Shown here in pieces: positions 4,631 through 10,783 of a stretch of 64,000 nt of DNA. Both the position numbers and the translations under genes were made by a program. The DNA is from Bradyrhizobium genosp. L (GTDB lineage Bacteria; Pseudomonadota; Alphaproteobacteria; Rhizobiales; Xanthobacteraceae). The notes under the pieces were generated by a model that was not told where the DNA came from, did no database searches, and saw only the letters and a list, made by a program, of their open reading frames with translations. The number at the start of each line of letters is the position of its first letter. Within the stretch, counting starts at the first letter, position 1. The stretch is from the NCBI RefSeq assembly GCF_015624485.1, contig NZ_CP061378.1, forward strand, positions 6,076,001-6,140,000. The letters run 5' to 3'.

Positions 4631-5065
4631 TCAATGCTGCGCCGACGTCGCCGCCGGCTGATACAGCTCCTCGGCATATTTGTGCGCGAGCCACGACGTG
4701 AGCACGGCCGGGATGAAGCCGACCAGCCCGTAGAGGATGAACTGCACCGGACCGCTCTCGGAGCCGTGCGAGGCATACAGCAGCGCCGCCCCGATGAAGC
4801 CCGCCGCGCCCACGATCAACGTCCGCAGCGCCGGCGCGATGCGCCGGACATGCATCAGGATGTCGTCGACCGCCGCCAGCATCAGCGACGGCACGATGCC
4901 GAACAGGTAGTTGTATTGCAGCGACTTGCCGAACACGACGAACAGCTTCACCACCTCGCCGCCATTGGTCTCGGTCCAGTAGCCGGACTGATAGGTGGTC
5001 GCGAGCAGCATCAGGAAGCCGCCGATGAACGGCCCGATCGCAGCAAAGATGAGATAGCGTTTCAT
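4631..5065 (-). CDS. Four-span inner-membrane protein of unknown function
   Basis: This 144-aa protein (start MKRYLIFAAIGPFIGGF) has about four hydrophobic segments. These are the N-terminal helix, YNYLFGIVPSLMLAAVDDIL, LIVGAAGFIGAALLYA and FILYGLVGFIPAVLTSWLA. It ends in a short hydrophilic tail. A GTG at 5095 would add ten residues, but the ATG at 5065 begins the hydrophobic region directly and is preferred. I cannot name a family with certainty. Confidence 0.7.
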   Translation of the reverse strand: MKRYLIFAAIGPFIGGFLMLLATTYQSGYWTETNGGEVVKLFVVFGKSLQYNYLFGIVPSLMLAAVDDILMHVRRIAPALRTLIVGAAGFIGAALLYASHGSESGPVQFILYGLVGFIPAVLTSWLAHKYAEELYQPAATSAQH

Positions 5066-5163
5066 GGTGAATGCCTTGCCAACCGATCCCACCACACGAG
5101 ACTGTCAATTCTAGGATTATCGGCACTCAAGGCCGTGTCAACGGCTAGGGCTTGAGATTGCAA

Positions 5164-5877
5164 CTAAAGACCTGAAAACCAAATGCAGTTCCCGAGCGCA
5201 CCGTCGAAATCAAAAGTGAGCTTTGTAAGCGCCGCGGGCCGTCGCGGAGCGCCGTCAATTGCTATCGTCTGATTGGCCGCGACCCCCTTATTTAGTATCT
5301 CTTCGTAGTAGCAACGCTGCACTTGCGGCCTACTTGTGTCACTTAGCTCAAAGCTCCAGCCGGTCACAACAACACCTGCCCCAAAAGGCGCGGACTTGAA
5401 CACCGTGTACCGCGTGAAAGGCAATTCCTTGCTATTTGCCGTTGCATCAAGTTGGAGCTGCCGCTTTGAAGGCTGCGGAACATCTGTCCTAAAATCACCT
5501 GTCACGCGAATAGATGATGCTGGATCCAATTTAACGGTACTACCTTCGGCCAACTTCACCGTTTGGTTTTTCGCAAGATTTACCTCGGTGTTGGCAAGAA
5601 CCATTGTGCCGCTAACTGACGTTTTGATCTGGGCTCGCTGGAATGCTTCATTCAATGCTCTTGCTACAATCTCGGCGGACGGGTTCACGGAAATCGTGTA
5701 ACTATACCCCCAAAGAGCCACCGCACATCCGGCGGATATTAAACAAGCCGCAATTGCGCAGCCGCCACAGAGCCAGCCAAATGCAACAGCCCGCTTGATG
5801 CGGGCGTCCGCTTCGATGCGAGAATTCAGGTTCGCCGCAAAGGCCGCCAAGTTTTCGTTGCCATCTTTAAACTTCAT
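5164..5877 (-). CDS. Single-span membrane protein, paralog B of a low-GC three-gene operon
   Basis: This 237-aa protein has a charged N-terminal helix of about 38 residues and one transmembrane segment (CAIAACLISAGCAVALWGYS). The rest is an extracytoplasmic domain. It carries a FecR-like strand pattern (LAEGSTVKLDPASSIRV) and the signature TVFKSAPF, TGWSF, RCYYEE and CIWF. The start overlaps the stop of the upstream paralog as ATGA. The equal length and shared motifs show a tandem duplication. Function is unknown. The two shared Cys sites could form a disulfide (inference). Confidence 0.8.
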   Translation of the reverse strand: MKFKDGNENLAAFAANLNSRIEADARIKRAVAFGWLCGGCAIAACLISAGCAVALWGYSYTISVNPSAEIVARALNEAFQRAQIKTSVSGTMVLANTEVNLAKNQTVKLAEGSTVKLDPASSIRVTGDFRTDVPQPSKRQLQLDATANSKELPFTRYTVFKSAPFGAGVVVTGWSFELSDTSRPQVQRCYYEEILNKGVAANQTIAIDGAPRRPAALTKLTFDFDGALGNCIWFSGL

Positions 5878-6587
5878 TGGCCTTCCTTCCGGAACCAAAC
5901 ACATCTGGCCGTGGCAGCAGTCACGTCGAAGGCCTTCGGGACAACCTTGATTGCATCGGGAACGCCGTCAGTCGCAAGATCAATCCGGATTGCAAGGTCC
6001 GAATTTTCCGCCCTTTCATTGTAGTAGCAATACTGCGTCGTCGGCCGTTCTTGGGCGCTTGTAAGAAACTCCCAGCCTGTCAGCACACTTCCTTGCTCAA
6101 ACGGCACGGACTTGAATACCGTGAAATTAGCAATCGTCTTCGCCTGCAATGCATTCTTAGGAGTCGGTGAACGCGGCGCAGAGATTGATGGAAGCTGGAC
6201 GCGAATTTCCCCATCTGCCGCGACCTTTGCGCCAGGATCGAGGAGGAGACGTGAATCGTTATCCAAGACAACCGTCGCATCCTTCGCCAGCCTTAGTTCC
6301 GGAGATACAATTTCAACTCGGCCATCAGCACTTCCGTGAAGATCAACGGCCGACAGCGCTTTCTGAAATGTCGACGAGAGCAATTCCAACTGGGATGATG
6401 TTCTCGTAACAAACGAATACCCATACAATCCAACTCCCGTTGCGACGCCGAAGCCGAAGCCGAGAACACCAACTCCCACCACTCTCCAAAAGCCCACACG
6501 ACCAGACACAGCGGACATCTCCGCTGAAATTCGGTTGGAAATGGCTTCCGTGAGGTTTTGATTTAGCGGGGTTGGAATCTGCTCCAC
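5874..6587 (-). CDS. Single-span membrane protein, paralog A of a low-GC three-gene operon
   Basis: With a GTG start at 6587 this protein is 237 aa, exactly the length of its downstream paralog. An AGGGG site lies 8 bases upstream. It has the same plan: a soluble N terminus, one transmembrane segment (GVLGFGFGVATGVGLYGYSF), a strand-rich domain (DATVVLDNDSRLLLDPG), and the FTVFKSVPF, TGWEF, QYCYY and CVWF motifs. Longer in-frame starts (to 6671) would overlap the upstream gene heavily. It ends in an ATGA overlap, so coupled translation with paralog B is likely. Confidence 0.78.
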   Translation of the reverse strand: MEQIPTPLNQNLTEAISNRISAEMSAVSGRVGFWRVVGVGVLGFGFGVATGVGLYGYSFVTRTSSQLELLSSTFQKALSAVDLHGSADGRVEIVSPELRLAKDATVVLDNDSRLLLDPGAKVAADGEIRVQLPSISAPRSPTPKNALQAKTIANFTVFKSVPFEQGSVLTGWEFLTSAQERPTTQYCYYNERAENSDLAIRIDLATDGVPDAIKVVPKAFDVTAATARCVWFRKEGQ

Positions 6588-6588
6588 A

Positions 6589-7740
6589 CTAAGCACCCCT
6601 GTTAGCTCTGTCAGCGGCCGCTGCAACTGCATCCGCGGCCTCCTTGCGGATCGCGGCGACGAGTGGCCCAAATAGATAGGCAGCAGCCTCGTCCGGAATA
6701 GTGACAGCAGCTAAGTCCTTTGGCTTCTTGATTCTGCGGACAGCCGTCATCGCGATTAACGTTGAAGAGCAAGCCGCAGCGATTGACGAAACTACTATGA
6801 GAAAGAACTCAAGAGTCTTGAGCTGTTCTGGCGTAACCTTGTCAGGGTCGACCCGGAATAGCATTGCAGCAAGTGAATGAAGCTGCGACTGAAATACCGA
6901 CTCTCTATTCTCCGCCTCCGCCTTGCTCATCGCTTCCGAGATCGGCCGCAACTCGTCACGCTTCGCCCGTAACCCAGCATCCGCCTGCACAAGCGCCGCC
7001 TGTGCTTGATCAATTTTTGCCTTCGTTGACGCGATTTCGCTATTGAGCGTCTTCAGGGCTGGATTCTGTGAGCATTTTTGGGTGACCGTCGGAGCACCAC
7101 CCGGCAGTGGATTTGGTATGGAGAGGGCCGAGCAGTTCTGCATAGGCTGCTTCGTGAGTTGCTCATTCAGCGACTGGAGTGCCTGCGTCAGGGCATCACG
7201 ATCTCCCCGCTTTTGAGAGACGGTTTCTGTGGCTGCTTCGATCTCGGCCTGCTTTCTGGAGAGATTGTCCTGAAGGCTCTTCACCACATCATCTTTCCGA
7301 TGCGTGTCTTCTAGGCGCGGCGTAAAGGAAGCTGCCCCGATCGCGTAAAGCGAATTTGATGTCACGGCGACCGCGCACAACACACCAACCAACGCCGCGA
7401 GTTTGACTATCCAAGAGTTTTGAGTTCGCACGGCTATCGCGAGTGGCACGCGAGCCAGCTCAACCATCGCCATTGCGACCGGGAAGAGCATGGCTTGCAC
7501 TGTCTTGAAGGGTGACGGGTCCGGCAATTGAGCGACTGTGACGTAAATGTTCGTCAGAATGAGGCCGATGATCGTGAATTCGACCACGAAGGCGAGAACG
7601 ATCTGCTTCACGTTAATCGAGTAACCGCGTTCTCGGTCACGCAGCAGTCGAGCCAGCTGACGCTTAGGAAGCTTTTCGTCGACCAAGAGTTCAGCTTGAT
7701 GCAGGGGCTCAACCGTCCCCGCAGGCCCGGAATAGTTCAT
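6589..7740 (-). CDS. Polytopic membrane protein with coiled coil, first gene of the low-GC operon
   Basis: This 383-aa protein has three N-terminal transmembrane segments (around residues 43-65, 80-102 and 108-130). A long Gln/Lys/Glu-rich coiled-coil region spans about 140-285. A fourth segment (FFLIVVSSIAAACSSTLIAM) and a cytoplasmic tail ending NRGA follow. This resembles the general plan of DUF4407-like proteins, but I cannot assign it. Its stop lies one base before the GTG of the next gene. Base composition is clearly lower than in the flanks (25 of 60 G+C at 6781-6840). Confidence 0.8.
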   Translation of the reverse strand: MNYSGPAGTVEPLHQAELLVDEKLPKRQLARLLRDRERGYSINVKQIVLAFVVEFTIIGLILTNIYVTVAQLPDPSPFKTVQAMLFPVAMAMVELARVPLAIAVRTQNSWIVKLAALVGVLCAVAVTSNSLYAIGAASFTPRLEDTHRKDDVVKSLQDNLSRKQAEIEAATETVSQKRGDRDALTQALQSLNEQLTKQPMQNCSALSIPNPLPGGAPTVTQKCSQNPALKTLNSEIASTKAKIDQAQAALVQADAGLRAKRDELRPISEAMSKAEAENRESVFQSQLHSLAAMLFRVDPDKVTPEQLKTLEFFLIVVSSIAAACSSTLIAMTAVRRIKKPKDLAAVTIPDEAAAYLFGPLVAAIRKEAADAVAAAADRANRGA

Positions 7741-7856
7741 AGACGGCCCCCACCAACGGTTGTGGGGTTACGCTAACTCAACAGTTGGCACCATGCCAAG
7801 ACAGCAGAACAACGGGTCTAGGCGCACCCCCGGGAAATTACGGCCTTGCGAAGGAC

Positions 7857-9455
7857 CTACTCCCCCCACGCCGCGAACGCGTCGTTGAACGCGCGCTCGC
7901 CCGGGGCGCCCTTTTCGATCGCGATGATGGCGCGGCGCTGGTTGGTGTAGACCAGTGGCACGTCGAACCAGGAGCGCTCCTTGAGGAGCTGCATGTTGCG
8001 CGAGCGGTCCTGGTCGACGTTGGAGAGGCCGACCAGGAAGAAGCCGTCGGTGACCTTGACGGCGAGGCCGGCAAGCGGCGTGCCGCGGGCCTGCTCGTTG
8101 GACTTCATCAAGATGCCGGGCACGTTGCCGACGCCGCCATTGGCGAAATCCTGCGGCAGGATGAAGGTCAATTCCGCGGTGTGGCTCGCCGGCAGCGACG
8201 AATCGGTGTTGCGGCGGAACGACATCGTCATCTTGAACTTGCGCTCGGGGATGTCGATGTCGGCGCGCACGGCGATGTCGGGCTTCGCGTTGCCGCTTCC
8301 CTTGATCTGCTCGGTGCGCCAGACCACCGAACCGACATACTGCTTGCCCTTCGGATCCGACGGATCTTCGTCATAGAGCACGACTTTCTGCGCGACCGGC
8401 GCGACCGGCTCGCCCGACGACGAGGGCTGGCCGACGCGGTCGGTGATCTTCTTGCTCGCGGGCGTCGAGGTATCCTTCGGCGCCTCGGTGGCCGTGGTCG
8501 GCGATTTGTTGAACAGGCTTGAGACGAAGGCCGTGGCCTGCTGGCGCAACAGAATGCCGGTGCCGACCAGGATCAGCAGGATGCCGATCACGATGGCGCT
8601 CTTGAACGGGAACATCGAGCCGACGCGCGGCGGCCGCTTCGGCTCGCGCTCGGCGCTGCCGATCCGCGAACGCTGCGGCGCTTGCGGCGGCTGCGGCGCG
8701 TAGCGCTCGGCCTCCTCGATCGCCTCGTCGTAGGAATAGGGCTGCGCGTCGGGATCGGCGCCGCGGCTCTCGAGATTGGGCTCGAGCCGGTCGAACTCCG
8801 GCGAGGGCGACGGCACGTTGGCGTAGGTCTTGCGCGCGTTGCGGCTGGCCTGCGCCGCGGCGCGGCCGAGATCGTCGGCGTCGGCGGTGATGTCGCGGAA
8901 GCCACGGACGCCGGGGGCGGCCGGAGGCACCGGCGGCGGCGCGCCTTCGCCGCCGCGGCGCGGGATCGGCGGACGCTCGCGGGTCGGCGGCAATTGGGCG
9001 TCGGCAGCAGGCGCCTGCGGAGCTTGCGGCCGCGACGGCAGTGGTGGCGGCGGCGCGGATGGCGGCGCATCGGCGCGCAGATTACGCGGCGGGCGGGGTT
9101 CGCTGGCGGGACGCGGGCGCGGCGGCGCGGGATCGGCCGAACTGCCCTCGAGCGGGCGGGCGGCGCTGGCGCGGCGGAAGCTGTCGCCACCGCGGGCGGC
9201 AGCGGCGGCGCCGCCGCCGGAACGGGTGGCCTCGCGGGCGCGCTGGGCGGCTTCCGACTCGACCTTGCGGACGGCCTCTTCCAGCGACAGCCGTTCGCGG
9301 GTGATCTCGGATTCGGAGAGCGGCGGCTGCACGCTGCGGAGCTGCTGGATCAACGCCGTCCGCGCCCGCGCGTACAGCGCGCGGCGGGCTTCGCCGGGGG
9401 CGGTCGGGTCCAATCCGGCAATGGCGCGGGCGATCAGCGGGTAGTAGTCAGCCAT
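7857..9455 (-). CDS. Proline/arginine-rich one-span protein downstream of purA
   Basis: This 532-aa protein starts MADYYPLIARAIAGL. Residues 1-80 look helical (RRALYARARTALIQQLRSV). Residues 80-270 are low-complexity, rich in Pro, Arg and Ala. One transmembrane helix follows (SAIVIGILLILVGTGILL). The C-terminal region of about 190 residues appears folded (VLYDEDPSDPKGKQYVGSV, MTMSFRRNTDSSLPASHTAE). The gene starts 35 bases after the purA stop on the same strand, so cotranscription is likely. I do not recognise a function. The layout suggests a cytoplasmic N terminus and a periplasmic C-terminal domain. Confidence 0.75.
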   Translation of the reverse strand: MADYYPLIARAIAGLDPTAPGEARRALYARARTALIQQLRSVQPPLSESEITRERLSLEEAVRKVESEAAQRAREATRSGGGAAAAARGGDSFRRASAARPLEGSSADPAPPRPRPASEPRPPRNLRADAPPSAPPPPLPSRPQAPQAPAADAQLPPTRERPPIPRRGGEGAPPPVPPAAPGVRGFRDITADADDLGRAAAQASRNARKTYANVPSPSPEFDRLEPNLESRGADPDAQPYSYDEAIEEAERYAPQPPQAPQRSRIGSAEREPKRPPRVGSMFPFKSAIVIGILLILVGTGILLRQQATAFVSSLFNKSPTTATEAPKDTSTPASKKITDRVGQPSSSGEPVAPVAQKVVLYDEDPSDPKGKQYVGSVVWRTEQIKGSGNAKPDIAVRADIDIPERKFKMTMSFRRNTDSSLPASHTAELTFILPQDFANGGVGNVPGILMKSNEQARGTPLAGLAVKVTDGFFLVGLSNVDQDRSRNMQLLKERSWFDVPLVYTNQRRAIIAIEKGAPGERAFNDAFAAWGE

Positions 9456-9490
9456 TTCCACACAATTGGTGGGATATAGGTAATATCCCG

Positions 9491-10783
<1,293 letters not shown>

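Follow-up and report, generated by a model that had tools for sequence, protein, structure and literature searches.

At positions 5164-7740 of the window, by which we mean the whole 64-kb stretch of DNA that was analysed, the open reading frame (ORF) list places three tightly packed genes on the minus strand, the operon gA-gB-gC (Table 1). An earlier note on this DNA had described them as coupled, and both junctions bear this out: a single base separates gA from gB, and the gC start and the gB stop overlap within an ATGA. The likeliest start of gB is the GTG at 6587, one base past the gA stop codon; an alternative ATG at 6632 is possible and would overlap gA. The topology of the three products was taken from a simple hydropathy scan and from charges. 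gA has hydrophobic spans at residues 47-65, 86-104, 109-127 and 312-330. The span count, together with positive charges that precede span 1 and follow span 4, predicts a periplasmic location for its loop 128-311. This loop includes a coiled coil (140-283) with Cys203 and Cys223. Both gB and gC have one span followed by a long C-terminal part that contains two cysteines and is predicted to be periplasmic, and a single comparison identifies them as paralogues (31% identity, E 4e-32). The plan proposed earlier, a four-span coiled-coil protein with two paralogous one-span proteins, is therefore the one recovered here.

Table 1 Features of the operon and its insertion site (feature, position in the window, strand, description)
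gA	6589..7740	-	383-aa inner-membrane protein (ORF list, hydropathy and charges)
gB	5874..6587	-	237-aa one-span protein; periplasmic domain, predicted; two conserved cysteines
gC	5164..5877	-	237-aa gB paralogue; cysteines 189 and 231
DUF5413 gene (flank, outside the cassette)	4634..5068	-	PF17434, 222.9 bits
hyp534 (flank, outside the cassette)	7857..9461	-	conserved chromosomal gene, 534 aa
Variable stretch from the DUF5413 gene to hyp534, contains the cassette insertion	5069..7856		locus comparison

The operon stands out in base composition, with 54.2% G+C over 5164-7740 against 65.1% for the whole window. Equally low G+C is found in four of 1229 same-size stretches taken in 50-base steps, and all four overlap the operon. 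GC3 is 0.54 for gC, 0.56 for gB and 0.61 for gA, whereas 52 ORFs picked mechanically (150 aa or longer, probably with some non-genes among them) have a median of 0.86. gC and gB have the two lowest values among these ORFs and gA the fifth; two ORFs that rank below gA look like non-genes. The atypical composition reported earlier was thus confirmed, and the accompanying G+C counts (25/60 at 6781-6840, 31/60 at 5401-5460 and 47/60 at 8821-8880) are exact.

Insertion site and distribution

The window copy lies between genes that look like housekeeping genes. The flanking hyp534 is present in 60/60 genus genomes searched and has no Pfam match; on its side follow a gene that we take from its sequence to be purA-like and, further out, what are presumably msrA and msrB, also named from recall of their sequences. 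Within hyp534, at 8501-9500 of the window, the G+C content climbs to 73-81% and the product is rich in Ala, Pro and Arg. As the earlier note had stated for this setting, the window has no tRNA, and Pfam, NCBIfam, PHROGs and PADLOC identify none of the three genes as an integrase. Convincing target duplication is absent, with just a 7-bp direct and a 9-bp inverted match between the ends of 5069..7856, and no defence gene was recognised beside the window copy. A hairpin just upstream of the window gA was dropped, given that by eye it has no counterpart upstream of gA in loci L002, L039 and L060.

To compare the site, 30 hyp534 loci with 1.5-kb flanks were used, one of which is the window's own. 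None of the 29 other genus loci has a match to gA, gB or gC at this site, so that the synteny comparison proposed earlier does reveal an empty site. The gap between the DUF5413 gene and hyp534 is approximately 2.8 kb in the window compared with approximately 48-203 bp in 7/29 loci; it is approximately 0.97-1.3 kb in another nine, and in the remaining 13 the DUF5413 gene lies outside the 1.5-kb flank. This spread of arrangements indicates that the site is variable in general. In five close loci the window flanks align up to both genes and the cassette is absent. Given the empty site in relatives and the foreign composition, the cassette is horizontally acquired. Presence at the same locus in all strains with host-like codon use had been named as evidence that would count against the earlier reading; the cassette is absent at 29/29 loci and its GC3 is low.

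Within the window's genus, 3/265 genomes carry the cassette (the window's own, G000; G415; and a divergent copy in G355), and a relic is found in G329. Absence at all 29 loci, presence in so few genomes and the relic together point to gain and loss like that of accessory genes. Family-level searches gave matches in 2/198 and 4/258 genomes, one or two of them weak in each, and the order-level search in 13/397 (G000, G415, eight genomes of one genus and three weak matches). At class level 2/385 genomes match, and at phylum level, searched with the gB/gC profile, 6/329. The weak matches in G162, G112 and G1573 (family) and in G484, G525 and G665 (order) were not counted as members, and their short loci contain no gB-type ORF.

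Relatives found in database searches number 271 for gA, of which 120 were listed, 60 for gB, all of them listed, and 370 for the gB/gC profile, again with 120 listed. Among listed gA contigs no shorter than 3 kb, counting the window's own genome, 29/77 match a listed gB contig exactly in size, compared with 0-2 for seven shifted sizes used as a control, and gA and gB have consecutive locus tags in Bradyrhizobium sp. USDA 4354.

Moving copies and their surroundings

The G355 copy (loci L092, L039 and L093) is a divergent gA-gB pair that scores 94.1 bits for gA with profile A1 and 106.5 bits for gB with profile A2, both built without the G355 sequences. It sits between BrxL and a WYL regulator inside a BREX island and is encoded on the strand opposite BREX. 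On one side the island carries an integrase-like gene, BrxC, PglX in two ORFs, a GmrSD_N protein, PglZ and BrxL; on the other, the WYL regulator, an SNase-like gene, DUF2130, a DrmD/BrxH-like helicase and a TmtA-like protein. The integrase-like gene, at the left of the island on contig C6, matches DUF6538 with 66.5 bits and PF00589 with 22.4 bits, below the cut-off of 27.1. The third gene of this cassette, where the window has gC, encodes a small ClpP-like protein that is probably secreted (L039:7869-8327; PF00574, 20.4 bits against a cut-off of 20.2). The stretch separating gA from the divergently oriented WYL regulator gene contains a palindrome, GTAACTAG-N-TAGTTAC (L039:10254-10275), which could be an operator common to both genes; it occurred in 0 of 200 shuffles, which is not a fair test for a sequence noticed before it was searched.

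The G415 copy (locus L002) comprises all three genes of the operon. A gene close to it matches type IV restriction models (E 7.7e-30), and ATPase, histidine-kinase-like and regulator/kinase-like genes are also found nearby, the last two named partly on sub-threshold matches (HNH, HATPase_c and Response_reg are all below their curated cut-offs at this locus). GC3 is 0.52-0.63 across the operon and this set of neighbours, and 0.90 in the next gene, which is glycosyltransferase-like. Upstream of the operon, L002:26-2035 encodes a protein of many near-identical repeats of approximately 45 residues. The record (JAUEPE010000026.1) is titled 'Frankia sp. RB7' yet is placed in the window's genus, and the name looks wrong.

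The relic in G329 (L040:4700-4790) is a decayed gA C-terminus with 28 residues identical to protein P0116, and nothing else of the operon is recognisable in the 15 kb around it. It is a sign of recent loss. The cassette is mobile in the window's genus. Defence genes surround two of the three readable moving loci (L002 and L039), the window copy being the third, and one of the three (L039) is inside a BREX locus; no BREX genes occur in the stretches read around the window and L002 copies.

A fixed two-gene version and the nearest known families

A different arrangement is found in genus g128, which is probably Methylobacterium. Here gA was detected in 89/89 genomes, using a profile that includes four g128 members, and in all eight loci read it is followed by a single gB-type gene. 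A Kef-type antiporter gene is divergent from gA at a distance of 0.26-0.44 kb in six of the eight loci; it lies approximately 6 kb from gA in the seventh, and none was found within the stretch examined in the eighth. A MoxR-type ATPase is located downstream in 7/8 loci, up to approximately 3 kb away. Both neighbours were named by Pfam on a single locus, L057. The g128 gA has a host-like GC3 of 0.83-0.97, and the g128 loci read are not situated among known defence genes. Presence of the two-gene version in every genome together with host-like GC3 suggests that the original role concerned the envelope or ions. In an unrooted tree of 17 sequences, a branch with support 1.0 separates all gB sequences from the single subunits of g128, G355 and an Acetobacteraceae protein, which are on the same side as gC. 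This suggests that gB is an additional copy that arose by duplication.

None of the curated libraries searched has a model for the gA or the gB/gC family, which agrees with the earlier statement that no named system has this plan. Pfam, NCBIfam, PHROGs and PADLOC give weak matches, for gA nearly all of them in the coil, and sequence searches of the PDB are unconvincing (best E 0.0088 with the gB/gC profile over 45 positions and 0.065 for gA). Literature searches brought up no paper on this operon, a weak negative given that the family has no name to search for. Several candidates were rejected. DUF6799 scores 15 bits on gC and 17.7 on the L039 gB and does not reach its cut-off of 26.8 bits; RrnaAD, which matches 6/32 members at E up to 1 (best E 9.4e-6, in one member), has no explanation and was taken as chance; and the PADLOC SMC-like ATPases JetC and LmuB match gA, a 383-aa membrane protein, in the coil only, with at best 23.5 bits.

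DUF4407 (PF14362) comprises bacterial membrane proteins with several spans, a coiled coil and a further span, and is the nearest family by profile, matching 4/32 gA-family members at E up to 1. However, the best match (25.6 bits, P0106) does not reach the 31.3-bit cut-off and falls largely within the coil (P0106 residues 148-275); the window gA has no match at E up to 1, and none was found in the window's genome. The nearest systems in plan are Zorya and Kiwa. Zorya ZorA/ZorB is a membrane defence motor, in which a multi-span subunit with a long coiled coil is combined with a one-span subunit with a periplasmic domain, but the ZorA tail is cytoplasmic whereas the gA coil is predicted to be periplasmic, and among the PADLOC matches there is a single one to ZorA (11.8 bits, on gB) and none to ZorB. 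Kiwa KwaA/KwaB is a membrane sensor of phage infection that uses a four-span membrane protein as its sensor. gA also has four spans but in addition a long coil and two one-span partners, and no Kiwa model is among the PADLOC matches at E up to 1. The operon is a member of neither DUF4407, Zorya nor Kiwa. The G355 cassette lies inside the BREX island next to the WYL regulator; by sequence it is not a BREX component.

Conservation and possible function

Among 20 aligned gA proteins, conservation is highest in the spans (0.71-0.82) and is 0.47 in the coil. Invariant positions are E54 (span 1), E94 and R97 (span 2), T127 and S130, where span 3 ends, and S285 and H288, ahead of span 4. The coil cysteines are found in at least 90% of the aligned sequences and are missing in the G355 copy. 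In 13 gB/gC proteins most invariant residues lie in the C-terminal part with both cysteines. The conserved spans and invariant residues suggest that the membrane core does something itself, perhaps ion movement or signal relay, and that the periplasmic parts may be sensors.

Our leading reading, held tentatively and at somewhat less than an even chance, is that the operon encodes an envelope sensor/effector complex that has spread as protective, probably anti-phage, cargo. In this model, in which we infer complex formation, sensing, the ion effect and protection, gA would be the membrane core, with three spans, a periplasmic helical hairpin and a fourth span, and with its cysteine pair placed between the two hairpin helices. 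Docked on this hairpin would be gB and gC, as periplasmic subunits that are anchored in the membrane and probably contain disulphides. Envelope disturbance, for example phage entry, would be detected by the periplasmic parts, and the signal would move the spans bearing E54, E94 and R97; this would alter ion or proton flow, or an inner-membrane partner, and infection would stop. The Methylobacterium-like genus would use the two-gene version for envelope or ion homeostasis, and in the window's genus the cassette would travel as protective cargo.

The protective reading is favoured by the defence genes around both other readable moving copies, the accessory-like gain and loss, the linkage of gA to gB and the conserved charged spans. 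The number of defence-linked loci is only two, however, and islands carry cargo of many kinds; several of the neighbour matches in G415 are sub-threshold, and the G355 copy lacks the cysteine pair. The window copy itself sits between housekeeping-like genes, and no PADLOC, Pfam, NCBIfam or PHROGs model fits. Core presence in all genomes of another genus is also unusual for phage defence. The earlier suggestion of a defence or stress membrane system gains support from the surroundings of two other copies and not from those of the window copy or of the version fixed in g128. We consider it unlikely that gA and gB/gC form an undescribed membrane immune complex in the fuller sense, that is, a cysteine-locked periplasmic sensor on an ion-conducting four-span core, which in one genus would serve homeostasis next to a Kef antiporter and in another would act as a mobile anti-phage system (also in BREX islands).

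A close competitor, only slightly less probable than the leading reading, is an envelope or ion-homeostasis module without an anti-phage role, which would partner the Kef-type K+/H+ antiporter and elsewhere ride in islands as occasional stress cargo. The fixed, host-like gA of g128 and the divergent Kef-type gene beside it argue for this module, as does kefB (META1_2712) of M. extorquens AM1, which is reported to be a repeated target of laboratory evolution under methanol and butanol stress (PMC5023240, PMC12797532 and PMC4827201). The AM1 kefB may not be the gA neighbour, however, and the window, L002 and L039 copies, two of which sit with defence genes, have no recognised Kef-type gene beside them. 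An improbable alternative is that the proteins belong to an envelope apparatus for assembly, adhesion or secretion in which the gA hairpin is a periplasmic scaffold. The periplasmic coiled coil, the anchored periplasmic domains and the conserved gene order would suit such a role, but it is the spans rather than the coil that are most conserved, and an outer-membrane or exported partner never recurs beside the copies read. The surface complex entertained in the earlier note likewise gains nothing, since no sign of an exported surface structure was found. Small membrane proteins, foreign composition and a bare insertion could also describe a superinfection-exclusion set of a prophage or plasmid, which we regard as very improbable: there is no match in the plasmid collection with three queries, in the phage collection with the gB query or in IMG/VR with three profiles, and the PHROGs matches are weak and mostly to the coil. 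Chance open frames in a low-G+C stretch have a negligible probability. Only the missing family name speaks for them, given that low G+C makes stops likelier rather than rarer, and they are refuted by hundreds of full-length relatives with conserved residues and linked order.

The families thus lack a curated model yet have hundreds of relatives, with one version fixed in a genus that is probably Methylobacterium and moving versions among defence genes. If the protective reading is true, a housekeeping membrane complex would have been turned into an immune one. If the homeostasis module alone is true, a partner would have been found for an antiporter family that laboratory evolution is reported to hit repeatedly. 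Genus g128, if it is Methylobacterium, offers tractable laboratory strains; one of its genomes has a small contig with matches to 21 plasmid records, of which 20 are Methylobacterium or Methylorubrum, with just 3% of the query covered in the 10 matches listed.
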